From assembly GCA_028284905.1 (NCBI GenBank), contig JANQQU010000012.1, positions 248,001-312,000 of the forward strand: a stretch of 64,000 bases of DNA, given 5' to 3'. A program made the position numbers and the translations under genes. The stretch's first letter is position 1. Each line of letters starts with the position of its first letter. Source of the DNA: Calditrichia bacterium (GTDB lineage Bacteria; Calditrichota; Calditrichia; RBG-13-44-9; J075). The notes under the pieces are model-generated. The model did no database searches. It saw only the letters and a program-made list of their open reading frames with translations, and was not told the origin of the DNA. Below, piece by piece: positions 30,501-46,265 of this stretch.

Positions 30501-33500
30501 AGAAATCATTCAACCCTCCCGCTTGTTTATTGAAAGCCTGACTTTATCCAACGTACCGAATGCAGCAGCCGGGACAGTTAACTTTAATCAACCCCTGCAG
30601 GTAACTTTAGTGCTGCAGAACAGTGGTGGCGACCCGGTTAATGGCTTAATCCTTGAGCTAATCAACGATGCAACCGGCGATACCGTAGATACGCTGACGC
30701 CGCTGTCAGTGATTCCACCGGATGATATGTTGACGATCGCTTTTGATGATACTGCCGGCACGCTCCTGGAAACCCGCGAATATCGCGCGGTGATTACCCA
30801 GGCACTCTCGCAAACATCCGGAGATGCCGTGGAAATTGGCGCGCCGCTGGATGATGAAGAGGATGTAACCATTCAGGAACCACGCGAGCTGAATCTCTTT
30901 TCTTCTGCGACCGGTGGAGGCATCTATTCGCAGGCGCAGGAGTTCCAGGTTAACTTTACTGTAAAAGATACTGTTGGTAATAGTCCTTATGGAAATGGGG
31001 AAGTCTCTATTGAACTACCCGCCGGTTTTAGCCTGGTGCCACCATCTACCCAGACGGTTCCTTTTGACATAAACGACCTGACCGGCGGATGGACGATTAT
31101 GGGAGACAATGTTTCCCAGGGCTCCCTGGATACATTACGCGTTCGTTTCTCACAAATCCCCACCGACCTCAACATTGATAGCCTGGTACAAATCGGCCCG
31201 GACAGTATCGCCGAAGTAACCGTGAGAATCGACAGCTCTGCGCGCGTGCTTTCTACACTGGCGATCCTTTCTCCGGTCGGTGCCCAGGATAGCGTTGTTT
31301 CAACCGGACAGACTTTTATTATCTCCGATACCGTATTCTTCGACGGTGGATTTAATGCAGACGGCCGAACAGCGGAAATTATATTGCCGCCGGGATTTGC
31401 CGTGAACACACCGACGACGATAACGCTGCCGGGAGATACCAGTCGTTCTGCTGTTTCCTGGGAAGTAACCGTCCCAACAACCGTGCCTTCAACGCAGCCA
31501 GCTGTTTTTACGTTTAACCACGAAGGAACGGAAACCAATACCGGCCTGCCGGTAACCCGGGTATCCTCCTTGCCGATAACAGTTGTTTCGCAGGCGAGGT
31601 TATCACTGGCAGCCGACATTATTGCACCGACTGGCGCAACAGATGGTATCATCAGCACTGAGCAATTCCTGGATTTACGCTTATCCATTAATAATCTCGG
31701 TGCTGCAGCAACAACACCGTTGGATTCCAGCGATGTAACCATCTCATTGCCGGCAGGATTCACGTCTCCGGAAAATCTGCAGCGGCGGATTGCAACGAAT
31801 GAAACAGACACCATTCGTATTCGCGCACCGCAGACTGCCCAGGGCCCGAACGTTATCAGTGCTACTTTTACAAATGTAGCGACAGATATTAATAGCAACC
31901 TTGGCGCCGCCGTTGTCGATTCTACCGATCAAATCGAAAATATTAATACCGTCGAGCGGGCGAATCTGAGCGTCTCAATCGCAGCTGGTAATCTATTTGC
32001 ACTTAGCCAGTCAAATATTCCGGTAAATGTTACCGTGGATAATACCGGGGATGCACTTATTAATCCAATTGAGATCGGCGTAGAATTAACCCTGGATAAT
32101 GGCTTTTTCACTTTTAGCGGCGGGCAAAGTGGTGATAAAGATACCCTTTATCTACCGATTGTCGATAATACCGCGCAGGGCACCTTCCAGGTAAATGCTA
32201 CCGGGCAAGCCGGTTTTAGCAACTTTATCGCAACGCTGATTCCGGCGAATTCATCCGGACAGATTTCTCAGGATGCCAATAATAACTATCCTGATACCCT
32301 GGCGTTTATTTCCGATAGCACCGCAACGCACCCGGTAGAAATTCGTGAGGGTGGTGGTATTGTTATCGATAGTATCCGGGCGGTCGTTGATAATGCATTG
32401 GTCGATGATACCCTTTCCAACGGCCAGAATTTTACATTAAGAGCATTCATCAAATACGACGGTAATGTTGCGCTGAACGGCAGAACCGCGAAAGTTAGTC
32501 TGCCGGCAGGATTCTTCACGGAAACCGACTCCGTAGAACAAGTCATCACCGGCGATGATGTAACTGTCGACTGGCCGGTTTCAATTTCGGAAGCGGTCCT
32601 CAGTGAAATTATCAGCAAAGGTAATGGCGGCAAGGCAACTGCAAACCGGGCGAGCGCCAGTAGTGATAGCAGTAGCAGCCGTGCTGAAAATGGCGATCTC
32701 GGCGAGAAGATTGAAGAGATTCTTCAGGAATTCTACCTTCAGGTAAAGGCACAGGGACGTAATGCCGTGGATACCAGTCAGGTGGTTACCCTGACGCAGC
32801 AGGATACGATTCTGGTCGAGAGCCGTGCGGAAATGCGGGTGCGCACCGAAATCGCCGGACCGAGCGGTGCCCTGCAGGGAACCATCAGCACCGGATTACC
32901 TTTCGATATTCGTATTTGGGTGGAAAGACTGGGAGATGCCGGCCTGGTTGATGGCGACTCGAACTTTGTCAGCCTCCACGTCCCGGATGGATACCGAATT
33001 CTTGGCGATGGCGTGGCACCGGGAGATACCGTCTTGCCGGTTCTGAAATTTGATGTTGGCTTTGCCAATGCCAAAGTCGTAAGCGTTGTTGCACCGGAGG
33101 CAATTCCGGGCGTGCCGCAGCCGCAGGTCTTTGCCCGTCTGGATTCTACGGCAAGAGATGAAAATACTGCTCAGAATGCCTACATCATTCCCAATCAGGG
33201 CACATCTCCAGTACCGTTAACGCTGGAAGAGCGGGCAACCCTGCGCCTGGATGAACTGCAGGCGAATGCGCCCTCCTTTGGCATTAACCAGGGCTTTAGC
33301 ATTACTGGAATCCTGACTAATATTGGAGATGCCGCTGTCGCACCAAACGATAGCGTATCAGTAGAATTGTCTTTTGATACTACCAAGTTTGTATTGGAAA
33401 ATGGTGAAACTGCCCGCAAACGCATCCAATTGCAGGGCAAGCAGGATACACCGATAAGCTGGGAGCTTATGACCCAATCCGAACTCGGTGATTTCGAAAT

Positions 33501-35997
33501 TATCGCCACCATTCTCGACTCACTTTCTTATGATGAACATGGCCCGGACTCTATACCGGTCTTTACCGCAAAGGGCGCTGATAGTACGATGATTTCCATC
33601 GCGGAAGTTGGCAACGTTGCTCTAACCTCGGCGCAAATCTTTAACCATCTGACTGGTGACGACAGTCTGACCGTTTCCACCGAGCAGGTGGTGCGGGTTG
33701 CCCTGAAAGCAAGTATCAGCGGAGAGTTTGAAAATCGTCTCGCCTCGCTGGAATTGCCGGATATCTTCACTACACAGGTATTGACCGATACTATTTCTAC
33801 AGTAACGGATTCGGTCGAATGGTTGATCCAGGTACCTGATACGGTAACAAATCTCTGGGAGATGTTGAAAGTCCGCATTCAGGCGACATCCAGTATCAAC
33901 CAGGCGGTGACGCTCCGTGATTCACTGGAATTATTTATCTTTGTCGAAGATCGGGCCCGCTTGTCGATTGCCGGTGAAATTACTGATGGTGCTTTCAATA
34001 ATACCGTCAGTCAGGGCAATTCTTTCACCTATCAGGCAGTTGTGCAAAATACCGGAACAGCGGTATTGCAAGAATCGCCGGTGGGAGCAATCGCACTCTC
34101 CTTTGGAAATGGTTTGCAATTGGCCGCCGGAGATACGCTGGAGAAAAATTTTGCACTTAATCAGCCGGTAAGCTGGACGATCGATGCCTCGGAAAACGCG
34201 GCAATGAAAGGTGTTATCGGGCGTATCAACGATCTGAAAGCGAATAAGATGGCGCCGGTCGATCCGGAAAGTGCTGCCAGAACCAATCGTGAATTTCAAT
34301 CGAAATTAAGTAGTCTTTATAAAGAGCTCAGCACGCTGGCGGAAGAATCGTTTGTGCGGGTGAACGTCACGACTCGTCCGGTGGATGTTAACTCCGGTCG
34401 TCCGGCGGCGTTTGCCGTTAATTGCGGTTGCGATACGCTGGCAATCACCATTGCGGAAGCGCCGTTTATTACAGTCGAATCGTTCACCGTCCCGGCGGTT
34501 ATCTCTACCGACCAGGTTGTGGAATTCCGCCTGGAAGTAGATGCACCACCGAATGTCGTCGATCGCCGGGCAGAAATCATTGAATTGCCCTCCGGTCTGG
34601 AAGCAACACTGGAGCAGGCATTCAACCAGGATTCTGTAGTCACCTGGACAGTGCTGGGAACAGCGGCTTCCAGTGGCAACATCCGTGTGATGGTCGAAGG
34701 CCGGGATCTGAATAGTTCGGTGACAAATCCGGTCTTTGTGCAGACGGAAACCAATGCCAGTATTACCGTTCAGAACAAGGCACTATTGCGCCTGCGGGCT
34801 GGTAGTGAAGTGCTCAATGCCCAGCGGGGAGATACCCTGACCATCCAGGCAACAGTCTCCAATGTCGGAGAAGCGGAAGTGACCGGACAGGGCAGCCTGC
34901 GTCTCGATCTTGGTGTCGGGGATGCCTTTACCTTGCTGGATCCGGATACGGTGAAAACCTTCTCACTGGATGGTGGGCTAACCAGTGCATCCGTTAGTTG
35001 GGAAGTGGTTGCGCCACAGGTGAATGTTAACAATACAATTTTTGAAGTGACTTACGAGCAGCGCCCACTGGATGTAAATACCAATGCGCTCGCAACCCTG
35101 GAAAATACCCGGGCGATTGTCTCGGTGAATATGGTTGCCAGCGAATTGCGGGTGCTGCAATTGAGCGAAGTTATGCCGGAAGAAAGTTACGTTCAGGGAC
35201 AAACCAACGTCGCTATCCTCGGCCTGGAATTCAGCAACGAAAATACCAATGATGGCATCCTTCTGAAAGAATTTATTCTCGATGTCATCGACGGGCAAAG
35301 CGGCGAAGCTGTTACAGATATCGAAAACCTGCTCTCCCGGATTGAAGTTGTTGGTTATAATTTCCACCTCAACGGCAGTGGCTCACCGGGCGTATTGGGA
35401 GGTATAAATATCTCCGGGCCTACCAGCGGTCCGTTAAGCCTGGTGGTTTCTCCGGCCGATACCATTCCGCCGGAAACGATACAGCAAGTGGTCGTGCGTC
35501 TGAACCTGGCGGATCAGAATATCAACCGTAATTTCAGTCTGCGGATTAATCGCATCGTTGCAGAAGGTGAATTTGCCGGAAACATCGCGGAAGTGAAGGA
35601 TAACAACAACGTGCCGATTGAGCAATCGCCAATTTTTACTTCGTTGTCAATTACTATTCTTTCTTCCGATGTGGACCGGATATTCCGTAACTATCCCAAT
35701 CCGTTTGGTATGGATACTCAGATTCCCGGTGGTAACCCGGGAGAAACCCGATTCTCCTTCTTTATGGAGAACGAAGGCGACGCACAGTTGTCTATCTACA
35801 CCTTGCTGGGAAGACTGGTTGTGCAGACGGATGCGACCGGACTGGCACGCGGATTACACAACCGAACACTCACCTGGAGTGGCATGAACGGCGATGGTCG
35901 CCGGGTGGTGAACGGTGTATACGTGGCGGTTCTGAAGATCAGCTACAATAACGGTTCGAATAAGACCTTGCAAACCAAGGTGGCATACATCAAGTAA
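21577..35997 (+). CDS. giant secreted surface protein of Ig-like repeats (4806 residues) with FlgD-Ig-like tail
   Basis: One uninterrupted frame of 14.4 kb. A signal peptide ends near residue 29 (STLLA). Residues 30-240 are a beta-rich domain with FNFYGTDFDRIYVGTNGFAT, of a kind seen at the start of large secreted FCB proteins. Residues 505-920 and 921-1336 are two tandem units of exactly 416 residues, each of four invasin/Big-like Ig domains (VTDGFGN, FDPVGGG, TTGPTAGV). A third unit begins at 1337. From about 1500 to 4690 I count about two dozen CARDB-like domains of roughly 110-140 residues (NVLPLTVAQNQSGI, ENTGIGTAQL). Residues 4700-4806 hold NYPNPF and a FlgD-Ig-like beta domain, typical of secretion/sorting tails. 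Likely an adhesin or surface fibre. ATG 21589 is an alternative start, four residues later. Confidence 0.85.
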   Translation: MDKHMKVVGRFYLFCLVALFGLSSTLLADKGTASNRNINWADGNDTEFFWYEPGGTQLSPTTPASDDVYETIFSSGFTFNFYGTDFDRIYVGTNGFATFADISQTFNSNDNLSASQTPDSLLAIFWDDLDQPGGFPPSRIFAQMVGIAPYRRYILSWDNMRIASGPGGSDGPLRCQIILYETSNVIKYQYFELGSGGSLNSFEQGGSASVGLRFPGDSQAYSVNSTSLSELLPIFFYPEDQISGTVAFGGNSDTVQTGTVNQSLTLNITGLQFDDGNSIGEMGKADVVRIHSPFGGDVDTMTVAEVWVDGTSFFLDGNNSQPPTAEQTAFIGNIATWHFDDPKDSLFIQLPPFAARDSIRVVFQTNISPGLTAPSNRDFDTNVYARLNGSANGIAASPSIRITAADASIYEISPDTDVSIAAGANLNVEITAIDEFNNTVSSDDSVNIIIVGSSTVNAPTGERFSSSSSLTFSVSDSVAGEFSIRVENVLRPELTISSGIITVLPGAADALEMVSGDGETVTAGTSQILQVRVTDGFGNLVPNTDVRFQVTGGGGNIGGSNQVDITSDANGLAEVTLTTGPTAGVTNTVLTTLLSGSMDTFTFNVNTTPGQISYFTVVPSGFNFTAGQTFSVTATAFDANDNQVSETGTSVDFASFGGASVSFPGGTSGTLTNGATSFSVVNTEAEVFRVTTALTANAAVQGVSDEITIAAAAASTISINNGDDQTGAVSTLLPLPLEVQVADAFGNLINGATVTFDPVGGGSVTNSTDLTDANGIATTDWTVHSTPTNDSLKAFIAGVSTTPDTLTFNATVVAGAGDTLIRVTPTVTSGTVDTDLGDVFEVQVTDNLGNPVAGFDVSFAIVIAPDGSTNESLSVTSTTTNASGSASTLLHLGTRAGSYTVRAYTNATNPSFVDFVATANPGAADSLVHIVGDGETVTAGQNLLLQARVIDAFGNELSGEGVRFQVTAGGGNIGGSSVFITSSDADGLVSATLTTGPTAGVANTVVATSLSGSNDTQNYNVSTTSGQISYFTLIPEAFTLTAGDTFDVTVTAFDANDNQVSETGTLLDFDDFGGASVVYPNGNTGILTNGTVTYQAFNVDAEIFRLTASLNANPAIQGVTDPITTVAAAPSLFSIVSGDGQTGAISTQLPLPLQVRVTDEFGNNVSGATVTFDPVGGGAVSNPTDNTGNDGIATTDWTVHNTTDNDSLKAFIAGVGTTPDTLTFNATVTSGAGDNLTQTPPGVTSGTVDTDLGGTFEVRVTDSGGNPVEGLSISFAIVDKPAGSENETLSAFSVATDVNGFASTTLHLGTIAGSYTVRAFSAITTPGFVDFIATATPGAADSILIVSGNNQSATVGQALSDSIRYQVVDIFGNGTPGITVDFAPASGSVNPTSDVSDNSGNVATAWTLGTTTGSTTLNASSTTPALSSAPVTATALSGGVNSLNLVYMRSNEITSDSIAIIAGENIAVVVEALDINNNPVADVDIVFEALAGFNVEFLDDTVTTNASGRSGNIVITDAARDSSFFRAFVGGIELPLHAYNISYAGNLTPAAVTPGQTGIGFSFDVINYSPQSVDLDFANSSFNFNDGLTSFSSNLSSPATLLPGTNNLTFTAATLSSSYAPGSYAPTFIVKGENDNNLLSGVIQLPGSELSVFSVQINSISGASSVPKGDTLRALMSVQNDGGAAIDVNALTTTLDVTGTPAVTVIPDPANVTQIPAGGLAVLAFDIAVPGNATSDYTVGGVFNGTVNGTTVPATATLSNAFTFSVTDNAFLTVQNFQPLRATTGEAAAFTSDIFNDGGLPVVLDTVNTYITFGVNDTLRLKQTYAVPTGGVSNAVEVEWETAAILSLAGDYGMSVRLNGTQNGTPFDTTIASLGTITVQNPPNVVVQSINVLPLTVAQNQSGIVAEVVLLNSGTNNADAILDLPAGVTLFGTQTELDSLAPDGGSQTITLNADSASSPIQFTFSVSDTFPAGTETIGVRYRYRDANTNLVFPVTAPDQDTFDVLTRALLGLSNVSITPDTAYAGVTNSSTLSFTIQNLGQSAASIAASDIVIDFNNDFSPALQSPASLPVVLGQGASQNFQYLLTIPPSVGIGPDPFDLTFSHTDTLSNVSYTDIDSTNIDTLLVLQGAGDSDLIIQSVAVDPELVNQGNTGISATVVLENRSVNPVAVDTVRLVGDTLSLGGNFITALSPAQVISGGDTAQFEYTFSVNPATEPGILTLDGEFVARDIGSGVVLRDSGAVSVGELTVLKPAAINFAPVTITPDTASEGQTGIIVATEITNGDSVTSDLMLTNLGIQFSPNDGSVSAVLETPTTLPTLPGGQSVNVRYRLTVADPAASNSISARLGAVGTDVTDGALVSDSSLTDTLTIVPKASLSIVAIDIPADSVIVGENEIPVAITVENTGIGTAQLNSVSLDLVNGPELLKSLQTFTLPDTLTSGQQSIVNYTIDVPDNLVLTGGFRDVYASASLSGEDVVSGIAIFSTADSLDTLVIVDSVQVINGLDPVISPAGPFSINQSETFQVNLGNNGGAALLLDGNTSLRLERTNAPGSLTPISINLAASDSILTPGENQNLLEFQPSVLAESGDFRMIVELSGTVLGQPYQQDYDTEQFISVGQQVAVTAINVVPGVVGPGQTGVGLEVVYGNLGGPVAIDPGTILNFRYTDGDIPLSVENLLRTDTLTIIPSGGDTMSWTFDIPTDANAGEVNVVVSQNFESGAFNVTSQPQTFDISSGVSLAYVDGSLTPNPVVPGQAIQFSAQFINLGSSTYILNTDSTFIRFSDTQPREFSAALNGSYSIGGIQNSVVDTSTIFFTTTVLDDSFEIGAFNVDFEFSGNQQNGDRVDTLLDNSTQITTISPANVVLDSVDIVPAFLVPGQENITIHYYLRNSGDADASLDGVENVFKDINGDVGAFWTQQSQSAPLPLAITSGEMITFSRDFILSENSTTGLVLARGILNYSDAANSYSFDQPSPRDSAEIIQPSRLFIESLTLSNVPNAAAGTVNFNQPLQVTLVLQNSGGDPVNGLILELINDATGDTVDTLTPLSVIPPDDMLTIAFDDTAGTLLETREYRAVITQALSQTSGDAVEIGAPLDDEEDVTIQEPRELNLFSSATGGGIYSQAQEFQVNFTVKDTVGNSPYGNGEVSIELPAGFSLVPPSTQTVPFDINDLTGGWTIMGDNVSQGSLDTLRVRFSQIPTDLNIDSLVQIGPDSIAEVTVRIDSSARVLSTLAILSPVGAQDSVVSTGQTFIISDTVFFDGGFNADGRTAEIILPPGFAVNTPTTITLPGDTSRSAVSWEVTVPTTVPSTQPAVFTFNHEGTETNTGLPVTRVSSLPITVVSQARLSLAADIIAPTGATDGIISTEQFLDLRLSINNLGAAATTPLDSSDVTISLPAGFTSPENLQRRIATNETDTIRIRAPQTAQGPNVISATFTNVATDINSNLGAAVVDSTDQIENINTVERANLSVSIAAGNLFALSQSNIPVNVTVDNTGDALINPIEIGVELTLDNGFFTFSGGQSGDKDTLYLPIVDNTAQGTFQVNATGQAGFSNFIATLIPANSSGQISQDANNNYPDTLAFISDSTATHPVEIREGGGIVIDSIRAVVDNALVDDTLSNGQNFTLRAFIKYDGNVALNGRTAKVSLPAGFFTETDSVEQVITGDDVTVDWPVSISEAVLSEIISKGNGGKATANRASASSDSSSSRAENGDLGEKIEEILQEFYLQVKAQGRNAVDTSQVVTLTQQDTILVESRAEMRVRTEIAGPSGALQGTISTGLPFDIRIWVERLGDAGLVDGDSNFVSLHVPDGYRILGDGVAPGDTVLPVLKFDVGFANAKVVSVVAPEAIPGVPQPQVFARLDSTARDENTAQNAYIIPNQGTSPVPLTLEERATLRLDELQANAPSFGINQGFSITGILTNIGDAAVAPNDSVSVELSFDTTKFVLENGETARKRIQLQGKQDTPISWELMTQSELGDFEIIATILDSLSYDEHGPDSIPVFTAKGADSTMISIAEVGNVALTSAQIFNHLTGDDSLTVSTEQVVRVALKASISGEFENRLASLELPDIFTTQVLTDTISTVTDSVEWLIQVPDTVTNLWEMLKVRIQATSSINQAVTLRDSLELFIFVEDRARLSIAGEITDGAFNNTVSQGNSFTYQAVVQNTGTAVLQESPVGAIALSFGNGLQLAAGDTLEKNFALNQPVSWTIDASENAAMKGVIGRINDLKANKMAPVDPESAARTNREFQSKLSSLYKELSTLAEESFVRVNVTTRPVDVNSGRPAAFAVNCGCDTLAITIAEAPFITVESFTVPAVISTDQVVEFRLEVDAPPNVVDRRAEIIELPSGLEATLEQAFNQDSVVTWTVLGTAASSGNIRVMVEGRDLNSSVTNPVFVQTETNASITVQNKALLRLRAGSEVLNAQRGDTLTIQATVSNVGEAEVTGQGSLRLDLGVGDAFTLLDPDTVKTFSLDGGLTSASVSWEVVAPQVNVNNTIFEVTYEQRPLDVNTNALATLENTRAIVSVNMVASELRVLQLSEVMPEESYVQGQTNVAILGLEFSNENTNDGILLKEFILDVIDGQSGEAVTDIENLLSRIEVVGYNFHLNGSGSPGVLGGINISGPTSGPLSLVVSPADTIPPETIQQVVVRLNLADQNINRNFSLRINRIVAEGEFAGNIAEVKDNNNVPIEQSPIFTSLSITILSSDVDRIFRNYPNPFGMDTQIPGGNPGETRFSFFMENEGDAQLSIYTLLGRLVVQTDATGLARGLHNRTLTWSGMNGDGRRVVNGVYVAVLKISYNNGSNKTLQTKVAYIK
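23089..25584 (+). repeat. two tandem in-frame units of 1248 nt
   Basis: Unit 1 (23089-24336) and unit 2 (24337-25584) each encode 416 residues starting PGAAD and keep the same length with no net indel. Many segments match closely (TAFDANDNQVSETGT in both), while the DNA has drifted at synonymous sites. An incomplete third unit starts at 25585. This is an old internal duplication within the giant gene. Confidence 0.85.
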
Positions 35998-36089: not shown

Positions 36090-38003
36090 ATGAAAAATTC
36101 TGTGTCGCGCTGGAAAATGAAATGGATTGTTGGGATTGCTATCTTCACCCAACTCCTTTTTACAATGCCGATGCTCTCCCAGGGCACTGGTGGTACTGAA
36201 AACATTCTCCATGAGGTAGGGGCAAGCGCCCGGGCATTCTCCCTTGGCCGTGCCTATGTTGCCATGGCGGATGACCCGTCTGCAGTGTTTTGGAACCCTG
36301 CCGGACTGGAATATGTACCGCGCACATCTCTTTCGCTTTTTCACAGTCCGCTGGTTGCCGATGCAGCGTATGACTTTCTGGGATTTGTCTATCCGACCTT
36401 ACAATATGGTACTGTCGGCCTGGGCTTTTCCCGGGTGGGCGTTGGCGATATCATCGTAACTGATATCTTTAATGTTCAGCAGGACGATAATCTGGCGACT
36501 TTCGACATGAGCGAGATTTACATCTCTTATGCGAAAAAGATTCCCTTTAACCTTACCACCGGTATTACTTTCAAGGTGCATCGGCAGTCTTTTGCAGCGA
36601 CCAATTCGGTAACGAGTGCTTTTGGTCTGGATGCCGGATTGATGTATCGACCGAATTCCGATTCTCCGTTACTGAACGGACTTTCAATTGGCGTGCATTT
36701 CCTTAATGCGGTTCGTCCGCAGTTAAAGCTTGGGGCTAACGAAGACACCCTGGCCAATCGTATCTCAGTTGGCGTTATGAAAAGCATTCCAATTGGTCCC
36801 AGCGGCAAAATGAATATCCTTTTCGATTATGTTCAGGGACAGTACGAAGGTGGCAGTATTCATGCGGGAACGGAATATCAGTTTAACAATGTGGGTACGA
36901 TTCGGGTCGGTTATGACAAGGATGCCCCGGCCTTTGGTGCTGGTCTTCGCTACAGCTTTGTCGATATCGATTATTCGTTCAGTAATTTGAGTTATGAAAG
37001 TGAATTTAGCCCCTCGCATCGTTTTTCAGTGACTTTTAATCTCGGTAAATCCCGGGAAGAGAAAATCTTTCTCGCCAATGAAGAACGCCGGCGTCGGGAA
37101 GCGGAGCTGGTGCAGCAAACCCGCGAAGAAGAACGCTTGCAGCGCGTGGGTAATCACCTGGAAAATGGAAAGACTTTCCTGAGTGAAGAAAAATATTTTG
37201 ACGCCTATGCGGAATTTCAGCAGGTGATCGCTAACGATCCTTTTAACAAGGAAGCGAAAGCACTTTTTGACAGCGCCCGCGCTCAAATTCAGAACCAGTT
37301 TGACAATCGTCAGCGGGTAGCAATTGAAGAGGCCGTTGATAAAAAGCTGGAAGAAGAAAACCAACGCTACGTAGATTTGCATTTCCAGAAAGGCCAGCTC
37401 TTCCTGGAAAAACGCCAGTTCACCGACGCATTAATCGAGTTTAACTTGGCCCTGGAGCGCTCCCCGCAGGATCCACTCATTCAGGAAGCAATCAACACCA
37501 CCCAGCGGCGCTTGAATGCGGAAGTGCAGCAACTGGTGCAGGATGCCCGTTCGGAATTCCAGCAGGGTAATTTTACCGACGCACTTCGCATCGTTGGGGA
37601 AGCGATGGTGCTAACCCCGGATGTGGAAAGCCTTCAGGAAGAGTTGAGCACGCTGGAGAAGCGTATCAAGCTGCAGCAATACATCATCGATGGTCTGGCT
37701 TTGCTGGAATTAGGGCAGTATGACAAGGCATTGCTCGAATTCGAAAAAGCCCTGGAGCTGGATCCCACCAGTCAAACGATTCGCGAATACTACAACAAAG
37801 CGAAGCTGAGTGCGGATACCAAGCGTGAAAAGATGAGTCCGGATGAAGAACGTCAGCACCTGGTTGCAACCGAACATTTTCTCGCTGGTCGTTACGAGCA
37901 GGCCCTGGAAATCTGGGAACGCCTCGCCCGTAAATATCCGACGAACAAGAAGGTTCAGGATGCAATTAAGACAACAAAAGATCGTATTCGCCGGACAAAA
38001 TAA
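36090..38003 (+). CDS. PorV/PorQ-family outer-membrane protein fused to TPR repeats
   Basis: 637 residues. A signal peptide (1-31, ending MLSQ) leads into a PorV/PorQ-like barrel domain, residues about 35-315. Its signature is GASARAFSLGRAYVAMADDPSAVFWNPAGL, then strands ending RFSVTFNLGKS. A charged helix (EERRRREAELVQQTREEERL) links it to TPR units covering about 350-637: LENGKTFLSEEKYFDAYAEF, FQKGQLFLEKRQFTDALIEF, IDGLALLELGQYDKALLEF, TEHFLAGRYEQALEIWERL. PorV shuttles cargo in type IX secretion and PorQ-like proteins are barrels of the same fold. A TPR extension of this size on the barrel is unusual; it would face the periplasm and could bind cargo or other secretion parts. The gene lies 92 nt after the giant protein gene, which ends in a sorting-type tail, so a shared secretion role is likely (inference). 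Confidence 0.8.
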   Translation: MKNSVSRWKMKWIVGIAIFTQLLFTMPMLSQGTGGTENILHEVGASARAFSLGRAYVAMADDPSAVFWNPAGLEYVPRTSLSLFHSPLVADAAYDFLGFVYPTLQYGTVGLGFSRVGVGDIIVTDIFNVQQDDNLATFDMSEIYISYAKKIPFNLTTGITFKVHRQSFAATNSVTSAFGLDAGLMYRPNSDSPLLNGLSIGVHFLNAVRPQLKLGANEDTLANRISVGVMKSIPIGPSGKMNILFDYVQGQYEGGSIHAGTEYQFNNVGTIRVGYDKDAPAFGAGLRYSFVDIDYSFSNLSYESEFSPSHRFSVTFNLGKSREEKIFLANEERRRREAELVQQTREEERLQRVGNHLENGKTFLSEEKYFDAYAEFQQVIANDPFNKEAKALFDSARAQIQNQFDNRQRVAIEEAVDKKLEEENQRYVDLHFQKGQLFLEKRQFTDALIEFNLALERSPQDPLIQEAINTTQRRLNAEVQQLVQDARSEFQQGNFTDALRIVGEAMVLTPDVESLQEELSTLEKRIKLQQYIIDGLALLELGQYDKALLEFEKALELDPTSQTIREYYNKAKLSADTKREKMSPDEERQHLVATEHFLAGRYEQALEIWERLARKYPTNKKVQDAIKTTKDRIRRTK

Positions 38004-38177: not shown

Positions 38178-40865
38178 ATGTTCAAAAATATCTCTAAAGA
38201 AGAACTGATTATCCCTGCATCGATGTCTCACCTCCTGGAGGTGAGGGAATTTATTGAGCGGATCGGAAAGAAATATAAATTTTCCGATAAGATCATCAAT
38301 TCCTTTAAGCTGGTTGTGGATGAGACTTGCACCAATATCATCCGGCACGGCTATTCGGACATTAAAGACGGTAAAATTACGATTCGTGCGATTATTCGCC
38401 GGTTGAGTTTGACCGTTGTAATTATCGATCAGGGAAAAAGTTTTGACCCGCGCCAGGTGAAAGATCCTGACCTGAATAAGTATGTGCAGATCGGGAAAAA
38501 GGGTGGTCTCGGTATTTTCATGATGCGTAAGCTCATGGACGATATTCAATACAACCTTACCAGCCATGGCAACGAACTACGTTTAACCAAAATGCGGGAA
38601 GCGGTCGAAGAACCGAAATGGAAAATGGAAATCGAATCGATGTCCATTCGCCGGAAGTATTTTGTTTTTCCCTCTGTGGCTTTGGTTCTGCTGGCAATTG
38701 TCAGTTATTTTTTCCTGGTTCCCCGGATGACCGCCCGTGCGGAGCGGGAAATCGTCAATGAAGCGGCAACAATCACCATGGATTTTGCCCGCACCAACTG
38801 GGCGCCGCTTAGTATCGAAGACGACCTCGCCCTGTTTGAAATTGCCAACACCTTTCATAAAAACCGCAGCGATCTTATTGAATACGCTGTTGTTACCAAT
38901 AGTGATATGGAAGTGTTAGCAGTTCGACCTACCAATTTTACCCTGGCGATAGACCGGGTAATTAATCTCGACAGTTTGACGGTTGTTAAAACGATCGAAG
39001 ATGTTACTATCTACGAAACGATAATAAACGACACCTCGATCGCCCGTATGGGATCGGAATTCTACTATTTTGTTTCCCCGATTCAATTGGTTACCGAAGA
39101 GATCTCTGAACCGGAGCCGATTGGATATGCAATGCTTTGGATCGATCATAATATTATCGACAAAGCGCAGGCGAGCACCCACCGCCGCTGGCTGATGTTG
39201 ATTCTCGGCATCCTGATCTTTGGGTTGATCGGCATCGCAATACTCGTTACCCGGATTACCGAACCCTTCCATAAACTGGCCGAATGGGTGCGCCAGGTGG
39301 GACGGGGACAGGTCGATGAAGATGAAATTGATATTGATGCCCGGGACGAAATTGGCGAGATTGCCCAGGCATTTAGCGAAGTGACCTCAAAGTTCCGGGA
39401 AGCACAGGTTACCGTTATTGAGCAGCAGCGTCTGCAAAAAGAATTACAGGTTGCCCAGGAAATTCAGCAAATGTTGCTGCCGGACGATTTCCCGGATGTG
39501 GTCGGATACGATATCGCCTCCTACTATCAATCTGCAAAAGAGGTTGGCGGGGATTTGTTTGACTTTATGGAAGTCGACGATCAGAGTATCGGCGTTTGTG
39601 TGGCGGACGTCTCCGGTAAGGGGATTCCCGGATCGTTGGTAATGACCATGATTCGTACCTCATTACGCCTGGAAACCCGCGGAAATAAGAACCCGGCGCA
39701 GATTGTCACTAAGGTGAATAACTTTGTGACCGATGATATTCGTAAGGGGATGTTTGTTACCATGTTATACGTCATCCTCGATTCCCGGGAGCGCACTATC
39801 TCTTTCTCCAGCGCCGGGCATAACCCGATGATCCTCTATCGCGGTAAAAGCAAGGAAACGTTTTATCTCAATCCATCAGGATTCCCGGTCGGTATTACTT
39901 TGCCGGATATCGCGCTGTTTGGCGAAAGAATTCAGCATGACAAGATTCGCCTGCACCCGGACGATATTTTTGTTCTTTATACAGACGGTATTACCGAAGC
40001 AATGAATCCGCAGCGTGAACTGTATGGCGAAGAGCGCTTTTTGGCGGCAATTCGTAAATTCGGTCATCTCGATGTGGTTGAGTTTGTAAAGAGTATTAAA
40101 GATGATATTCTCACCTTTACCGGTGGGTTTGAGCAAAACGACGACATCACCCTGGTGGCGATAAAAGAAAATATGGCTGCGGTTGATGTAAAAGTGAATA
40201 TGTTCCGTCATCTCTTTGAGCAGGTGCAGACGAACTCGAAACTGACCATTGCAGAAGCATGCAAGGAAGCAGGCATCTCTCCGACAACCTTCTATCGCTA
40301 TAAGCGCATCTATCAGGAAGGTGGATATGACCTGTTACGGGAAATGCTCCACGGATATACCAATCTTGGTTTACGCCACATGAGCATCGAAGTAAAAACG
40401 AAGATGTATGATATTATTCGTAAATACCCGGAATATGGGCCGAAGAAAATCAGCGATGAATTAAATTCGGAAACCTATGCTTTTACGGAAGTTTCTCCGA
40501 CGTTGATTTATGAAGAACTAAAACGGGCCAAGCTGAACACCAAGGAAAGAAGAACGGTCTTCGTCCACCGTGGTGGAAAGAAGCGTTTAAAGCCTCCGGG
40601 AACACCATTGTTGACCCTCGACGGCGACGTTTTGGTAGGATTCCGCAGCGAAGATCAGCAGAATCATATTCCGTATATTCCGCCGGCCGCGGCATCCAGC
40701 CGTCCCAAGGAGAAGATACTGGCGGCAAAAGGGCGCAACATCCCGGCACCACCCCCGGAAACATCGGAAACATCGGAAAATTCCGTGCCGGTAGAGGAGC
40801 CGGAAGTAGACAATAATATTGAAAACGGCAGAAGTGTTGCGGAAAGCAAAAACGAACAGGGTTGA
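38178..40865 (+). CDS. membrane partner-switching regulator: HATPase + HAMP + PP2C/SpoIIE phosphatase + HTH
   Basis: 895 residues, with domains in this order. 1-140: RsbW/SpoIIAB-type HATPase with N-box DETCTNIIRHGY (E49, N53), IDQGKSFDP (D84) and glycine loop KKGGLGIFMM. 161-183: membrane helix. 184-336: outside sensor-like domain. 337-358: second membrane helix. 359-410: HAMP. 411-435: coiled-coil (QQRLQKELQVAQEIQQMLLP). 440-665: PP2C/SpoIIE phosphatase with metal residues in GGDLFDF (D459), VADVSGKG (D477), DGITEA (D603) and NDDITLV. 675-725: helix-turn-helix (TIAEACKEAGISPTTFYRYK). 735-793: winged-helix-like segment of transposase type. 795-895: disordered Pro/Ser/Glu tail. Kinase and phosphatase for a STAS protein thus sit in one chain. 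The STAS partner is the next gene. All catalytic residues appear intact; the DNA-binding role is inference. Confidence 0.85.
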   Translation: MFKNISKEELIIPASMSHLLEVREFIERIGKKYKFSDKIINSFKLVVDETCTNIIRHGYSDIKDGKITIRAIIRRLSLTVVIIDQGKSFDPRQVKDPDLNKYVQIGKKGGLGIFMMRKLMDDIQYNLTSHGNELRLTKMREAVEEPKWKMEIESMSIRRKYFVFPSVALVLLAIVSYFFLVPRMTARAEREIVNEAATITMDFARTNWAPLSIEDDLALFEIANTFHKNRSDLIEYAVVTNSDMEVLAVRPTNFTLAIDRVINLDSLTVVKTIEDVTIYETIINDTSIARMGSEFYYFVSPIQLVTEEISEPEPIGYAMLWIDHNIIDKAQASTHRRWLMLILGILIFGLIGIAILVTRITEPFHKLAEWVRQVGRGQVDEDEIDIDARDEIGEIAQAFSEVTSKFREAQVTVIEQQRLQKELQVAQEIQQMLLPDDFPDVVGYDIASYYQSAKEVGGDLFDFMEVDDQSIGVCVADVSGKGIPGSLVMTMIRTSLRLETRGNKNPAQIVTKVNNFVTDDIRKGMFVTMLYVILDSRERTISFSSAGHNPMILYRGKSKETFYLNPSGFPVGITLPDIALFGERIQHDKIRLHPDDIFVLYTDGITEAMNPQRELYGEERFLAAIRKFGHLDVVEFVKSIKDDILTFTGGFEQNDDITLVAIKENMAAVDVKVNMFRHLFEQVQTNSKLTIAEACKEAGISPTTFYRYKRIYQEGGYDLLREMLHGYTNLGLRHMSIEVKTKMYDIIRKYPEYGPKKISDELNSETYAFTEVSPTLIYEELKRAKLNTKERRTVFVHRGGKKRLKPPGTPLLTLDGDVLVGFRSEDQQNHIPYIPPAAASSRPKEKILAAKGRNIPAPPPETSETSENSVPVEEPEVDNNIENGRSVAESKNEQG

Positions 40866-40882
40866 GTTTATTAAATTCTATG

Positions 40883-40935
40883 ATATTCAGGGGTAATGTG
40901 CTATAATTATGCAATTACATCAGGCCCCCTGATAT
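40883..40935. promoter_or_regulatory. inverted-repeat element with central TATAAT upstream of the STAS gene
   Basis: Outer arms ATAT-T-CAGGGG (40883-40893) and CCCCTGATAT (40926-40935) pair with one bulged T. Inner arms TAATGTGC (40894-40901) and GCAATTA (40911-40917) pair with one bulged G. The loop contains TATAAT at 40902-40907. Symmetric arms around a -10-like box look like an operator, and the RNA could also fold. It lies 89 nt before the STAS start. No clear -35 is visible. Confidence 0.45.
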
Positions 40936-41023
40936 TTAGAGGCAATTTTATCTAGTAATATTTTTTTAATTCAGGCGTTTAAGAATTCAATTAGTCTTAA
41001 GTAATAATTACATGGAGGATTGA

Positions 41024-41851
41024 ATGGAAGGCATTCAGGTCTCAGTACAAACAGCTGGAAGTGCCGGTCAAATTTCGATCATCAAAGTTGGCGGATACAT
41101 TGATACTACAACTTCCTCCGAAGTGGAGCGCGCGCTCAATAGCCTGCTAAAGCAGGGCAGATTCCAGATTATTATCGATTTGGGGAATGTCGATTATATT
41201 AGTAGTGCAGGATGGGGTATTTTCATTAGTGAGATCAAAGCAATTCGCGAAAATAATGGTGACCTGAAGTTGGTTCAGATGATTCCGGATGTATATGAAA
41301 TTTTCGAATTGCTGGAATTTCATCATATTTTAGATGTTTACGATACTGTTCCCGCAGCAATAAATAAATTCGAAGAATCTCAGTACGTGGAAATGGTTCC
41401 GAAAACAGAAGCGCAGCCGCAACGGGTGCAGCCTTATGGTGGCGAGCAACAACAGCAGCCGCAGCAGCCTCAACAGCAACCGCCGCGTCCGCCGCAGCCG
41501 ACACCAACTCCCGGGAATTATAATAATAACCCGTTTCAGCAGCAACAACAGCAGCAGCCGTCACGGCCGACGCCTCCGCCACCTCCGCCGCCAACGAATC
41601 CTCAGCAGCCGCAGCAACCGAAGCGGCCGAATATTCTCGATCTCGTGAATATGTCTGTGGAAAACAAGATCAAATACCTGGTGGCGCAAAACCCCAATAT
41701 GGGCGCTTACAAGATCAACAAGCGTTTGAACTCTGCTGATTTTGGATTCACCAAAGTTGGTTGGTTTGGTGTTCGTTCCTGGTTAAGTAAATTAGGATTG
41801 AACAGCCGGCAGAATCGCCGCAGATTTGCAGCGAATTACAGAAACATGTAG
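41024..41851 (+). CDS. STAS anti-sigma-antagonist fused to winged-helix-like domain by a Pro/Gln linker
   Basis: 275 residues, cytoplasmic. Residues 5-115 form a STAS domain of the SpoIIAA/RsbV type (GQISIIKVGGYIDTTTSSEV, IIIDLGNVDYISSAGWG). Ser61 aligns with the serine that SpoIIAB/RsbW kinases phosphorylate. Residues 128-202 are a low-complexity Pro/Gln linker with poly-Q and poly-P tracts. Residues 205-275 form a basic domain whose residues 224-265 align without gaps to residues 751-792 of the upstream protein (P-x-x-G-x-x-K-I-x3-L-N-S, F-T-x-V, L-N). It is therefore the same winged-helix-like family. GGAGG lies 5 nt before the ATG. It is almost certainly the substrate of the kinase and phosphatase encoded next door; its C-terminal output is unlike classic STAS proteins. 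Confidence 0.85.
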   Translation: MEGIQVSVQTAGSAGQISIIKVGGYIDTTTSSEVERALNSLLKQGRFQIIIDLGNVDYISSAGWGIFISEIKAIRENNGDLKLVQMIPDVYEIFELLEFHHILDVYDTVPAAINKFEESQYVEMVPKTEAQPQRVQPYGGEQQQQPQQPQQQPPRPPQPTPTPGNYNNNPFQQQQQQQPSRPTPPPPPPPTNPQQPQQPKRPNILDLVNMSVENKIKYLVAQNPNMGAYKINKRLNSADFGFTKVGWFGVRSWLSKLGLNSRQNRRRFAANYRNM

Positions 41852-41956: not shown

Positions 41957-42619
41957 ATGAGCAAAAAATTGTTGTTGACATTATTTCTGGGAATCACCCT
42001 TTATAGTTTACCGGCGCTATCACAGTCGCCGGTAAATGTCGTTAGGGTGAAATATGACGGGGGAGGGGACTGGTACGGCAATCGCACAACCTTTGTCAAT
42101 ATTTTTGAATTCATGCGGAGCAATACCAATGTTGTTACCGCAGAACGGGAAATTACCCTGAGCATCAGCGATAAAGATTTTTTTCGCTATCCCATTGCTT
42201 ATATTGCCGGACACGGAAATGTAAAATTCTCCGATACGGAAGTAAGCCGTCTAAGGCAATATCTCACTTCCGGTGGCTTCCTGTGGGCCGATGATGATTA
42301 TGGCATGGATATCCACTTCCGCCGGGAAATGAAGAAAGTTTTTCCGGAAGGAGAGTGGGTTGAGTTGCCGTTTTCCCATCCGATTTATCACATCAATGAC
42401 AATTTCCCGAACGGATTACCGAAAGTTCACAAACACGATGGCGGGCCGCCGCGTGGCCTGGCACTCTTCCATGAAGGCCGGATGGTCGTTTTTTATAGTT
42501 TCAACACGGATATCAGCGATGGCTGTGAAGATATGAATGTCCATGAAACCAGCCCGGAAGTACACCGTTCGGCATTAAAAATGGGAACCAATATCCTGCT
42601 TTGGGCATTGTTACATTAA
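41957..42619 (+). CDS. DUF4159 domain-containing exported protein
   Basis: 220 residues with a signal peptide (1-22, ending ALSQ). The body matches DUF4159: VRVKYDGGGDWYGNRTTFVN, PIAYIAGHGNVKFSDTEV, LRQYLTSGGFLWADDDYG and LPFSHPIYH. The glutamine-amidotransferase-like fold often proposed for this family is not shown here by catalytic residues. In many genomes DUF4159 genes sit with MoxR, DUF58 and DUF4175 genes. Here DUF4175 follows after 63 nt, but MoxR and DUF58 are absent from this window. Function unknown; probably periplasmic. Confidence 0.85.
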   Translation: MSKKLLLTLFLGITLYSLPALSQSPVNVVRVKYDGGGDWYGNRTTFVNIFEFMRSNTNVVTAEREITLSISDKDFFRYPIAYIAGHGNVKFSDTEVSRLRQYLTSGGFLWADDDYGMDIHFRREMKKVFPEGEWVELPFSHPIYHINDNFPNGLPKVHKHDGGPPRGLALFHEGRMVVFYSFNTDISDGCEDMNVHETSPEVHRSALKMGTNILLWALLH

Positions 42620-42682: not shown

Positions 42683-45600
42683 ATGAAGCAATCAACCGGC
42701 ATCGACAACATCTTTCGGGAAACCCACCAGAAGGTATTGTCCGTTACCAGGAAATTTTACCTTATGCACGTCATGCGGGCACTGCTAAAACTTGCTGCCT
42801 ATGCCCTGGGATTATTGATTCTCTTCGCCATCGTCGAAATGGTTTTTGACTTATCCACCCCGGTCCGCAGTGGCTTCTGGCTCGGAAGTGCCGGTATTTT
42901 ACTCTATTTTTTAGTTCGCTCAATTATTCCCGATTTTCGCCGCGCCTTCAGTCCCGGTGATCGTGAGTTTGATAAGATTTCCCGCCAGATCGGGAAAGGA
43001 GATCCGGAAGTTCAGGATTCCCTGATAAACTTCCTGCAGATCTACCGGGAAAAAGGGATTACGACGCATCCGGCATTCAGGAATCTTTCTCTTAAGCAGC
43101 TTTATCAGCAATTCAAAAATATCGATTTTTCACGGATCCTTTCTTTTAACATCATCAAGGACAGTATTACTCGATTAGGGTGGGTCGCACTTAGTTTGGT
43201 GTTACTCTTCCTGGTTTTTCCTTCTTCCATGAGCCAGGCCGTGCTTAAGGTGATCTACCCTGGTGAATCTTTCGAAAAGCCTTTACCGTTAACGCTGCAA
43301 AATGTCAGTGGTGAAATTAATGTCCTGAAAAACGAAGCGGTGTCCTTAAATGGCAGTTATGACGGATTAGCACCACATAAGCTGTGGCTGGTGGTCGAGA
43401 GCGAAGCCGCCAATAATGACTCGACGATTATCGACCGTATCGAACTGCCGGCAACCGTTGGCAAGTCCTTTTCCTATGAAATACCCCATGTAAAAAACAG
43501 CTTTCAATACTGGTTTGAAGCACGTATGGATATGACGGAATTCCGCAACCGTCTGGCGAAAAGCGAGGCGGGGAAAGTGCTTGTGAAAGACCGGCCGTTT
43601 ATTCGGGAATTACAGGCGAAGCTAACACCGCCTTCATACACCCGTTTACCGGAAATTTTATTACCTCCCAATAATGGTGAAATTACTGCGTTGAATGGCA
43701 CCACCGTTCAGTTTGAAATTCAGGCTAATAAGTCTTTGGAAAAAGCATGGTGCGTTTTCGGAGATTCTACCATGCTGCCATTGCAGGTTATCGAAAATAA
43801 AGCCAGCGGACGCTTTACTGTTTCGGAAGACAATCAATATCAGATCCGTATTCTTGATCAGGAAGGGATCTCCAATTATCAACCGGTGCAGTATTCGGTG
43901 TTTGCCCTGGCTGATGAACATCCCTATGTGGAAATCGCCCGCCCGGGACAAGATCTGGATTTGGGGAATGAATTGGAAGTCCCCATGCTCGTCAATATTC
44001 GCGATGATTTTGGTTTCCGTAAACTATTTCTCAAAGGACAGCATATTCGCGCTGGCGGCAACGGTGATACCACTACTTTCGAGATAAACATTCCTTATCA
44101 AAAGCTGGATCAGAATCGCGGACTTGCCGATTTTCGCTGGGATCTCGGAGATTTCTATATGGTACCGGAAGATTATCTGGAATACTATGCGGAAGTATTT
44201 GATAATGATGTGATTAGCGGTCCGAAATCCTCACGGAGTAAAACTTTTATACTTCGCCTTCCCTCCTTGATTGAAATCCTTGAAAACTCTGAAGAACAGA
44301 TTGCCGAGCAGCTTGACGAGACAGAGGACGTCGCCAAGGAAACCGAGGAGTTGCGGGAAAAACTGGAAGAGATAAACCGTGAAATGCAGCGGGAAGAAGA
44401 ATTAACCTGGGAGCGGAAACAGCAAATCCAGGAACAGCTCGAAAAGCAAAAATCCGCGATGGAAAAACTGGAAAACGTTCAACAGGAGCTGGAGAACCTC
44501 ATTCAGGATATGGAAAAGCAGGAAATGCTTAGTCCGGAAACCCTGGAAAAATACATGGAGCTGCAGAAAATGTTTCAAGAGCTGGCATCGGAAGAATTGC
44601 TGGACGCAATGAAAAAGATGCAGGAATCCATGGATGAAATGAATATGGATGAGGTTAAGAAAGCAATGGAGCAGTTCAAACTTTCCATGGAAGAATTTGA
44701 GCAGAAAATTGAACGTACTTTTGAACTGTTCAAGCGCATCGAGCTGGAGCAAAAAATGGATCAGCTTGCCCAAATGGCCGAGAAGATGACTGAAGAGCAG
44801 AAAGCCATTAACGAACAGCTGGAAAATGAAAACTTGAGCGAGGCCGACCAGCAGCAGCTTGCTGAGCAGGAAGAGAGCCTGGAAAAGAATGCCGATTTCT
44901 TCGAAGAAAAATTGGAAGAAGCGAAACAGGCCTTTCAGGAAGAAATGGCCCAGACCGCTCAGGAGTTACAGGACATTCAGGAAATGATGGCTTCTCAGCA
45001 AATGCAGCAGCAAATGCAGCAAATGCAGGAGCAGATGAAAAACGGGGAAATGCAGCAAGCCAAAAAACAGGGTGAAAATGTTCAGCGGGATATGGAAATG
45101 CTCCAGTCCATGATGCAGCAGGCCCGGGATAATATGAATCAGGCGCAAAAAGAAGAATTGATGCAGGCGATGCAGAAAGTGCAGCAGGATATGCTCCGCG
45201 CTTCTTTTAAGCAGGAACAATTAATGGAGCGAACATCCAAAATGGATGTTGCCTCTCCGCAGGTGACAGATGTTGCCCGCCAGCAATCTCAGATGAAAGA
45301 GAACGTTAATAATATTATCAGTCAGGTAATGGATATCGCCAAGGAGACTTTTTTCGTTTCGTCGGACATGAACAAAATGCTGGCGAATTTGAAGGATGAA
45401 ATGGATGCTTCATTGGCAGGATTGGAAAATCGCAATATGCGCAGTTCCGCCCGTTCGCAAAATAAGGCGATGTCTAATCTCAATCAGGCAATTATGTCCA
45501 TGCAGAATTCCATGAATCAAATGTCCATGGCTGGTTCCGCTTCCGGTTTTGAGGAAATGATGCAGCAGCTCTCGCAAATGGCTGGCCAGCAAGGACAATT

Positions 45601-46120
45601 GAATCAGGAGTCCATGGGACTGATGCCGAAACCTGGCCAGGGAAGAATGCAGCTCTCCCCGGATGCCGCCGGTCGCCTGGCAGCGCAGCAGGAGATGATT
45701 CGCCAATCCCTGGAAAAACTCAACCAGGAGAGTGGGGGCGGCAACCAGAAAGACGTGCTCGGTCGCTTGGGTGAACTGGGTGAAGAGATGGAAAAAGTTA
45801 TCGAAGATTTACAAAAACAGCGCCTGGATCGCAATGTCATCGAGCGTCAGCAACGAATCCTCTCCCGGATGCTTGATGCTCAAAAATCTGTGCGTGAAAG
45901 GGAATACTCGAAAAAACGCCAGTCCGAGAAAGATCGTAATTTTGTCGCTAAATCTCCCCCGGAATTAAAGCAGGAACTGCTGGAGCGGGAAGATCAGCTG
46001 CGCCAGGAAATGCTGAAAGCTTTGAAAGAGGGGTACTCATCAGAGTATAAAGAATATATCAAATCCTATTATGAAATACTTTCTCGCCAGGGTGGGAATG
46101 CCCGCCAGAATAATGAGTAA
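42683..46120 (+). CDS. DUF4175-like membrane protein with very long Met/Gln/Glu coiled coil
   Basis: 1145 residues. Two membrane helices lie near 31-52 and 62-80 and a third near 165-186, followed by a periplasmic Ig-like region (about 200-520: LPLTLQNVSGEINVLKN, RELQAKLTPPSYTRLPE). From about 527 to 1140 the chain is almost purely helical, rich in Glu, Lys, Gln and Met, with a Q/M tract at about 771-793. The N-terminal half and the repeat-rich C-terminus fit DUF4175. The partner DUF4159 gene lies just upstream. GAGG lies 5 nt before the ATG. It probably forms a long extended helix in the periplasm, but the function is unknown. Confidence 0.8.
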   Translation: MKQSTGIDNIFRETHQKVLSVTRKFYLMHVMRALLKLAAYALGLLILFAIVEMVFDLSTPVRSGFWLGSAGILLYFLVRSIIPDFRRAFSPGDREFDKISRQIGKGDPEVQDSLINFLQIYREKGITTHPAFRNLSLKQLYQQFKNIDFSRILSFNIIKDSITRLGWVALSLVLLFLVFPSSMSQAVLKVIYPGESFEKPLPLTLQNVSGEINVLKNEAVSLNGSYDGLAPHKLWLVVESEAANNDSTIIDRIELPATVGKSFSYEIPHVKNSFQYWFEARMDMTEFRNRLAKSEAGKVLVKDRPFIRELQAKLTPPSYTRLPEILLPPNNGEITALNGTTVQFEIQANKSLEKAWCVFGDSTMLPLQVIENKASGRFTVSEDNQYQIRILDQEGISNYQPVQYSVFALADEHPYVEIARPGQDLDLGNELEVPMLVNIRDDFGFRKLFLKGQHIRAGGNGDTTTFEINIPYQKLDQNRGLADFRWDLGDFYMVPEDYLEYYAEVFDNDVISGPKSSRSKTFILRLPSLIEILENSEEQIAEQLDETEDVAKETEELREKLEEINREMQREEELTWERKQQIQEQLEKQKSAMEKLENVQQELENLIQDMEKQEMLSPETLEKYMELQKMFQELASEELLDAMKKMQESMDEMNMDEVKKAMEQFKLSMEEFEQKIERTFELFKRIELEQKMDQLAQMAEKMTEEQKAINEQLENENLSEADQQQLAEQEESLEKNADFFEEKLEEAKQAFQEEMAQTAQELQDIQEMMASQQMQQQMQQMQEQMKNGEMQQAKKQGENVQRDMEMLQSMMQQARDNMNQAQKEELMQAMQKVQQDMLRASFKQEQLMERTSKMDVASPQVTDVARQQSQMKENVNNIISQVMDIAKETFFVSSDMNKMLANLKDEMDASLAGLENRNMRSSARSQNKAMSNLNQAIMSMQNSMNQMSMAGSASGFEEMMQQLSQMAGQQGQLNQESMGLMPKPGQGRMQLSPDAAGRLAAQQEMIRQSLEKLNQESGGGNQKDVLGRLGELGEEMEKVIEDLQKQRLDRNVIERQQRILSRMLDAQKSVREREYSKKRQSEKDRNFVAKSPPELKQELLEREDQLRQEMLKALKEGYSSEYKEYIKSYYEILSRQGGNARQNNE

Positions 46121-46265
46121 TCAGGTGATAACTATTACCTTGTAATACTATCCGGTGATCAGTATCTTTAGCCAGTCATTGTTGGAGAGTAGATGACGAC
46201 CGGCGTTATTGATTGCCGGTATTACCCGGGACCGCAAACAAAAACCTTACAGTATTATCACCTTT

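Follow-up and report, generated by a model that had tools for sequence, protein, structure and literature searches.

The classical partner switches of Bacillus, RsbW/RsbV/RsbU and SpoIIAB/SpoIIAA/SpoIIE, consist of a kinase, a STAS protein and a phosphatase that are separate proteins without DNA-binding domains, and their output is a sigma factor. Here, we examine two adjacent genes of a Calditrichia bacterium (assembly GCA_028284905.1) within a 64,000-nucleotide stretch of contig JANQQU010000012.1, positions 248,001 to 312,000, hereafter the window. Their products belong to these kinase, STAS and phosphatase families and retain the catalytic residues. The first product is a predicted bifunctional kinase/phosphatase membrane sensor (KP), and the second is a STAS protein that ends in a winged helix-turn-helix (wHTH) domain (STAS1). 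To the reading that KP and STAS1 form a sigma-factor-free partner-switching module setting the activity of cell-surface genes, we assign a probability of about 0.5.

A kinase and a phosphatase in one chain are known from Vibrio fischeri, where SypE begins with an RsbW-like serine kinase, ends with a PP2C domain and acts on the STAS protein SypA (PMC3610818), whose gene lies in the syp polysaccharide locus and whose output is biofilm polysaccharide, the direct target not being known (PMC3610818, PMC8256260). The present system resembles SypE/SypA in its N-terminal kinase and PP2C in a single chain, its STAS target and its link to a polysaccharide locus. However, SypE, a response regulator, has a REC domain at its centre and lacks a helix-turn-helix (HTH), whereas KP has a HAMP sensor with two transmembrane (TM) segments in place of REC, and SypA is a bare STAS protein, whereas here the order is STAS, linker and wHTH, with two such proteins per genome. 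In SiaABCD of Pseudomonas aeruginosa, a membrane HAMP-PP2C phosphatase and a kinase act on a STAS-like protein, again with a biofilm output, but the SiaB kinase is a separate protein, and SiaC is a DUF1987 protein with a phospho-Thr68 and no HTH. KP scores 76 bits against the SiaA family model, whose cut-off is 700, and the two architectures are alike only from HAMP on. Like KP, Rv1364c of Mycobacterium tuberculosis joins PP2C (RsbU) and HATPase (RsbW) domains in one chain. It is a soluble, SigF-linked PAS-PP2C-HATPase-STAS single protein in which kinase and phosphatase stand in the order opposite to that of KP, with no TM segment, HAMP or HTH.

An earlier note on this DNA, made from the letters alone, knew of no described system with this layout. 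This claim has to be narrowed, as SypE/SypA shows the same kinase-PP2C order (PMC3610818) and Rv1364c joins RsbU and RsbW. A single chain that combines kinase and phosphatase and acts on a STAS protein without a sigma factor is already known (SypE/SypA), as is a membrane HAMP-PP2C protein that, with a STAS protein, controls biofilm (SiaABCD). We could not find a description of a kinase placed before the first TM segment, of a transposase-type wHTH on both partners, or of one sensor with two STAS-wHTH proteins, and we therefore regard the system as a phylum-wide variant of partner switching. Nor did the open-access literature yield a description of STAS-HTH or kinase/PP2C/STAS fusions of the present layout, though absence there is not proof.

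Domain architecture of KP and STAS1

KP consists, from its N-terminus, of an RsbW-like HATPase, a TM segment, a periplasmic domain, a second TM segment, HAMP, SpoIIE/PP2C, HTH and wHTH, followed by a K..PGTPLLTLDG motif and a loose tail. The features of the two genes, in window positions and amino acids (aa), are as follows.

38178..40865, + strand: KP, predicted bifunctional kinase/phosphatase membrane sensor, 895 aa (open reading frame confirmed as first placed)
38211..38591, + strand: KP kinase domain, RsbW/SpoIIAB-like HATPase_c_2, aa 12-138 (Pfam, E 1.2e-27; match to RsbW structure 6m36, E 7e-18)
38661..38723, + strand: KP membrane helix 1, about aa 162-182 (hydropathy)
38724..39191, + strand: KP extracytoplasmic alpha/beta domain, about aa 183-338 (secondary structure of the model, divergence; PAS/PDC-like by eye)
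39192..39254, + strand: KP membrane helix 2, about aa 339-359 (hydropathy)
39243..39374, + strand: KP HAMP domain, aa 356-399 (Pfam, E 1.3e-7)
39579..40166, + strand: KP SpoIIE/PP2C phosphatase, aa 468-663 (Pfam, E 4.7e-49; conservation; Foldseek)
40227..40358, + strand: KP transposase-type HTH, aa 684-727, HTH_28/HTH_29/IS481-like (family-model matches)
40377..40568, + strand: KP wHTH in common with the STAS protein, aa 734-797 (profile comparison)
40584..40637, + strand: KP motif K..PGTPLLTLDG.V, aa 803-820 (invariant columns)
41024..41851, + strand: STAS1, STAS-wHTH protein, presumed substrate and output protein, 275 aa (open reading frame confirmed)
41066..41359, + strand: STAS1 STAS domain, aa 15-112, fold nearest SpoIIAA/RsbV (Pfam, E 2.6e-18; Foldseek)
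41204..41206, + strand: STAS1 Ser61 codon, presumed phospho-acceptor, within YISSAGWG (invariant)
41384..41638, + strand: STAS1 Pro/Gln-rich flexible linker (predicted local distance difference test, pLDDT, under 50 over most of it)
41639..41848, + strand: STAS1 C-terminal basic wHTH, aa 206-275 (model, profile matches, charge)

Across 18 KP homologues with identities of 49-70%, the kinase residues E49, N53 and D84 are invariant, as are the G-box (G109, G110, L111 and G112) and the metal aspartates of the phosphatase (D459, D462, D477, D603, D655 and D656). Hydropathy gives exactly two strong membrane segments with about 156 residues outside, and the domain they enclose is the least conserved region of the protein. 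The model of the whole chain is of modest confidence (mean pLDDT 64); its top structural match by Foldseek is Rv1364c (PDB 3ke6), and SpoIIE, SiaA and RssB phosphatases are also found.

STAS1 matches TIGR00377 above the model cut-off (2.6e-18), and its STAS fold is nearest to SpoIIAA/RsbV structures solved in complex with SpoIIAB/RsbW. Ser61, invariant in 19 homologues, falls at what we take to be the position of SpoIIAA Ser58. The structure model shows the C-terminal end as a compact, helical domain, most of which has a pLDDT of 91-97. The domain reading of the earlier note, from the RsbW-like ATPase with intact N-box, the membrane helices around an outside domain of some 150 residues, the HAMP and PP2C domains and the HTH regions of KP to the STAS domain with Ser61, the Pro/Gln linker and the winged-helix-like end of its partner, is borne out. 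With both sets of active-site residues intact and Ser61 invariant, the note's proposal that opposing activities toward a STAS partner sit in one membrane protein also appears sound as far as sequence can indicate.

The K..PGTPLLTLDG.V motif, for which there is no Pfam family, shows almost no variation in KP of Calditrichota and is retained in part in KSB1. KP of three families of the class (L068-L077 and other loci outside the taxonomic order of the window's genome) has an extra C-terminal helical region and a total length of 1071-1201 aa, and in KSB1 it reaches 1250-1990 aa with an end that looks TPR-repeat-like. A truncated KP in a one-contig genome (G008/L073) proved to be an artefact of a 100-N scaffold gap, and an apparent 910-aa GH3-STAS fusion (L162) likewise spans a scaffold gap of this kind.

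A predicted, transposase-like wHTH shared by KP and two STAS proteins

The C-terminal domains of KP and STAS1 are homologous (hhalign probability 98.3%, E 1.3e-14, 33% identity), a relationship that, like the paralogue and the conserved flanking cluster described below, goes beyond the earlier note. They resemble transposase DNA-binding regions: KP matches HTH_28 at aa 690-720 (E 2.3e-5; 24.8 bits against a cut-off of 25) and its tail an IS481 transposase model (1.8e-9), while 9 of 19 members of the shared wHTH match HTH_21, the HTH of IS3 transposases (best E 8.9e-6). The likeness to the IS3/IS481 DNA-binding region thus comprises HTH_28/HTH_29 followed by an HTH_21-like wHTH. Unlike in these transposases, however, the catalytic domain is missing, with no Pfam match to the DDE domain in KP or STAS1, and the wHTH is fused to signalling domains in the same place across the class. 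The wHTH of STAS1 is strongly basic (net charge +10, isoelectric point 11.1).

A profile search of 11 genomes of the class finds three carriers of this wHTH in 10 of them and two in the remaining one. Besides KP and STAS1, the third carrier is another protein of STAS-linker-wHTH layout, here called STAS2, and the domain occurs in no other protein of the genomes searched. STAS2 is encoded within an exopolysaccharide operon in 9 of 10 genomes, together with a sugar transferase (Bac_transf), Poly_export and Wzc-like proteins and often a deacetylase; in the tenth, its gene is flanked by scaffold gaps. The STAS2 proteins group in a single clade separate from STAS1, consistent with an ancient, vertically inherited duplication.

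Conservation and gene order

Named genomes in which a scan finds KP are Calditrichota/Calditrichia metagenome-assembled genomes, KSB1 and one Candidatus Eisenbacteria contig. The earlier note had proposed a search for the same fusion order beside a STAS-wHTH gene. In the class of the window, KP is present in 38 of 40 genomes, the two without it being 72-80% complete, and a STAS-wHTH gene directly follows KP in all 18 loci examined, a conservation that excludes chance pairing. Before KP stands a PorV/PorQ-family TPR gene (17/18), preceded in most of these loci by a gene for a giant repetitive protein, and genes for DUF4159, DUF4175 and patatin-Omp85 proteins usually follow downstream. None of the 18 KP clusters contains a sigma or separate anti-sigma gene.

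A second set consists of 39 genomes around genome G048, outside the class of the window, from which 20 loci were fetched. A clear STAS homologue occurs in 32 of the 39 genomes. KP stands beside STAS in 15 of the 20 loci, mostly preceded by the PorV and giant-protein genes, and the cluster runs giant protein, PorV, KP, STAS, diguanylate cyclase, Wza, Wzz. The 15 KP/STAS loci, which are related by descent and do not represent 15 independent events, carry the wHTH on both proteins in nine cases, on STAS alone in three (L197, L199 and L200), on neither in three, and on KP alone in none. This pattern suggests that the copy on the STAS protein is the primary one. In seven loci (L185, L191, L192, L193, L194, L195 and L196), a gene for a ParA-like ATPase lies between KP and STAS; this 246-261-aa product was considered as a sigma factor and rejected on that identification.

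Proposed mechanism and alternatives

We infer the following cycle of phosphotransfer, its direction and its consequences from the domains and gene order described above. KP would respond to a signal from outside the membrane. One of its states would have the N-terminal HATPase bind the STAS protein and phosphorylate Ser61; in the other, the HAMP-coupled PP2C domain would take the phosphate off again. The free STAS protein would be the output, with the unphosphorylated protein as the active form by analogy with RsbV, SypA and SiaC (PMC3610818, PMC8457831). In Calditrichota, STAS1 and STAS2 would most likely bind DNA through their basic, transposase-derived wHTH and might divide their roles, one serving the giant-surface-protein/PorV cluster and the other the polysaccharide operon, while the HTH-wHTH tail of KP may tether the sensor to that DNA or associate with the wHTH of the STAS protein. 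To judge by the genomic neighbourhood, the pair probably acts in the control of surface and exopolysaccharide genes, and the output through fused DNA-binding domains that the earlier note proposed is plausible for the STAS protein. We propose more tentatively, at somewhat under even odds, that STAS phosphorylation gates the protein's own fused DNA-binding domain and that one membrane kinase-phosphatase with a homologous tail controls two STAS transcription factors, one for the giant-adhesin/PorV cluster and one for the exopolysaccharide operon, phylum-wide and free of sigma factors.

Several observations weigh against the mechanism as a whole, of which the DNA step is the weakest point. The best solved-structure match of the shared wHTH profile, a PadR regulator, is non-significant (E 0.5), and a k-mer search for an operator common to the two regulated leaders found no more than in shuffled sequences. 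The HTH and wHTH of KP carry almost no net charge (+1 and +2), and its HTH domains fall just below Pfam cut-offs. Furthermore, three second-set loci in the same cluster (L198, L201 and L202) have a KP/STAS pair without any wHTH, the STAS being a stand-alone domain. The switch as such consequently does not require DNA binding, and together with the diguanylate cyclase gene found by STAS in nearly all second-set loci these pairs indicate that DNA binding is a later addition or one of two outputs.

The alternative that survives best, which we consider live if unlikely, is an output like that of Sia or Hsb, in which the unphosphorylated STAS protein activates a diguanylate cyclase or another enzyme in trans, acting through cyclic di-GMP and then polysaccharide, and the wHTH is an accessory docking domain. 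Of the 20 second-set loci, 19 have a diguanylate cyclase (GGDEF) gene by the STAS gene, comparable to SiaD in SiaABCD, and Poly_export then follows in 15. SiaC, HsbA and BgrV are described as STAS-type proteins that control diguanylate cyclases (PMC8457831), the HAMP-PP2C part of KP resembles SiaA, and the wHTH-less STAS proteins of the second set fit such an output. In Calditrichota, however, none of the 18 KP clusters contains a GGDEF gene; those GGDEF genes for which the surroundings were inspected are located elsewhere and have no partner-switch genes around them, and the basic wHTH of the STAS protein is conserved.

Docking could also be the whole function of the shared domain: the wHTHs would bind each other and not DNA, holding the STAS protein on KP and keeping the pair specific in a genome with many STAS, HATPase and PP2C proteins. 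This explanation, live as well, strikes us as rather improbable. It would account for the confinement of the domain to KP, STAS1 and STAS2, for the presence of a wHTH on second-set KP only where STAS has one, and for the near-neutral charge of the KP copy. It sits poorly with the three loci in which a STAS protein with the wHTH stands beside a KP without it, with the grouping of the domain among transposase DNA-binding families and with the strongly basic STAS copy.

The earlier note's statement that no sigma factor lies nearby holds for all KP neighbourhoods read, in the class and in the second set. The genome yields 17 sigma-70 family matches, weak or strong, none of which passes the SigB/F/G cut-off, and no sigma factor does so in the six genomes tested. 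Of the four long sigma genes, three are RpoD-like and one FliA/WhiG-like by eye. A HATPase gene, for a separate 137-aa protein, lies near just one of the four, and their neighbourhoods show no KP-like link, so that a canonical sigma partner elsewhere was rejected. An ordinary anti-sigma switch in trans, in which the KP HATPase sequesters a sigma factor encoded elsewhere until STAS1 frees it, has the textbook role of RsbW/SpoIIAB and the number of sigma-70 matches on its side, but against these sigma results, and with the wHTH tails left without explanation, it is the least likely explanation and a very improbable one.

Flanking genes and a leader element

The conserved neighbours of KP and STAS1 in the window are the following.

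21577..35997, + strand: giant repetitive surface protein, 4806 aa, conserved upstream neighbour (open reading frame, synteny)
36090..38003, + strand: PorV/PorQ-family outer-membrane protein with TPRs, conserved upstream neighbour (family match, synteny)
41957..42619, + strand: DUF4159 protein, conserved downstream neighbour in Calditrichota (family match, synteny)
42683..46120, + strand: DUF4175-family membrane/coiled-coil protein, conserved downstream neighbour (family match, synteny)
46209..48968, + strand: patatin-POTRA-Omp85 outer-membrane protein, conserved further downstream (family match, synteny)

The giant protein appears secreted, with a C-terminal end that by eye resembles a type IX secretion signal, and its gene adjoins that of the PorV-family protein, a pairing kept across the class. 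Between STAS1 and the DUF4159 gene, six loci (L065, L067, L068, L070, L076 and L077) have a gene for a small membrane protein of about 165-185 aa, DUF456-like by eye. The window's own genome also encodes a conventional partner-switch set on contig C61 (L079:8037-13086), with separate GAF-SpoIIE, HATPase, STAS and GAF-SpoIIE genes; the neighbours examined there likewise include none for a sigma factor.

Just upstream of polysaccharide operons across Calditrichota, we observe a leader element close to GTAAnTGAC(A/G)(T/G)GGCGGAGCTAT. Sites include L078:6047-6064 (G000:C37:60046-60063) and the leaders of L160, L155, L154, L161, L156 and L159, with others in L222, L224, L228, L230 and L231; the genes behind them encode sugar transferase, STAS2, Wzz, SLBB export, glycosyltransferase and epimerase proteins. 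A search of four loci against Rfam at E 0.5 gave no match to the element. Its sequence looks similar, by eye, to the ops/JUMPstart element of RfaH. Two NusG-family genes are present in each of three genomes tested, so that the element could be recognised by a specialised paralogue of NusG. We did not adopt it as the operator of the wHTH because it precedes other polysaccharide genes too and is absent before KP.

Implications

Partner switches are mostly read as controllers of sigma factors, and for SypA and RbaV, two switches without a known sigma target, the direct target is still to be found. The family described here offers a series of natural states: a bare STAS protein, a STAS-wHTH protein with a plain kinase-phosphatase, the wHTH on both partners, a STAS gene beside a diguanylate cyclase gene, and a second STAS protein in a polysaccharide operon. 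The target of the free STAS protein thereby becomes testable by comparison. In Calditrichota and KSB1, the KP-STAS pair is a candidate for the master switch of adhesion at the cell surface and of exopolysaccharide.

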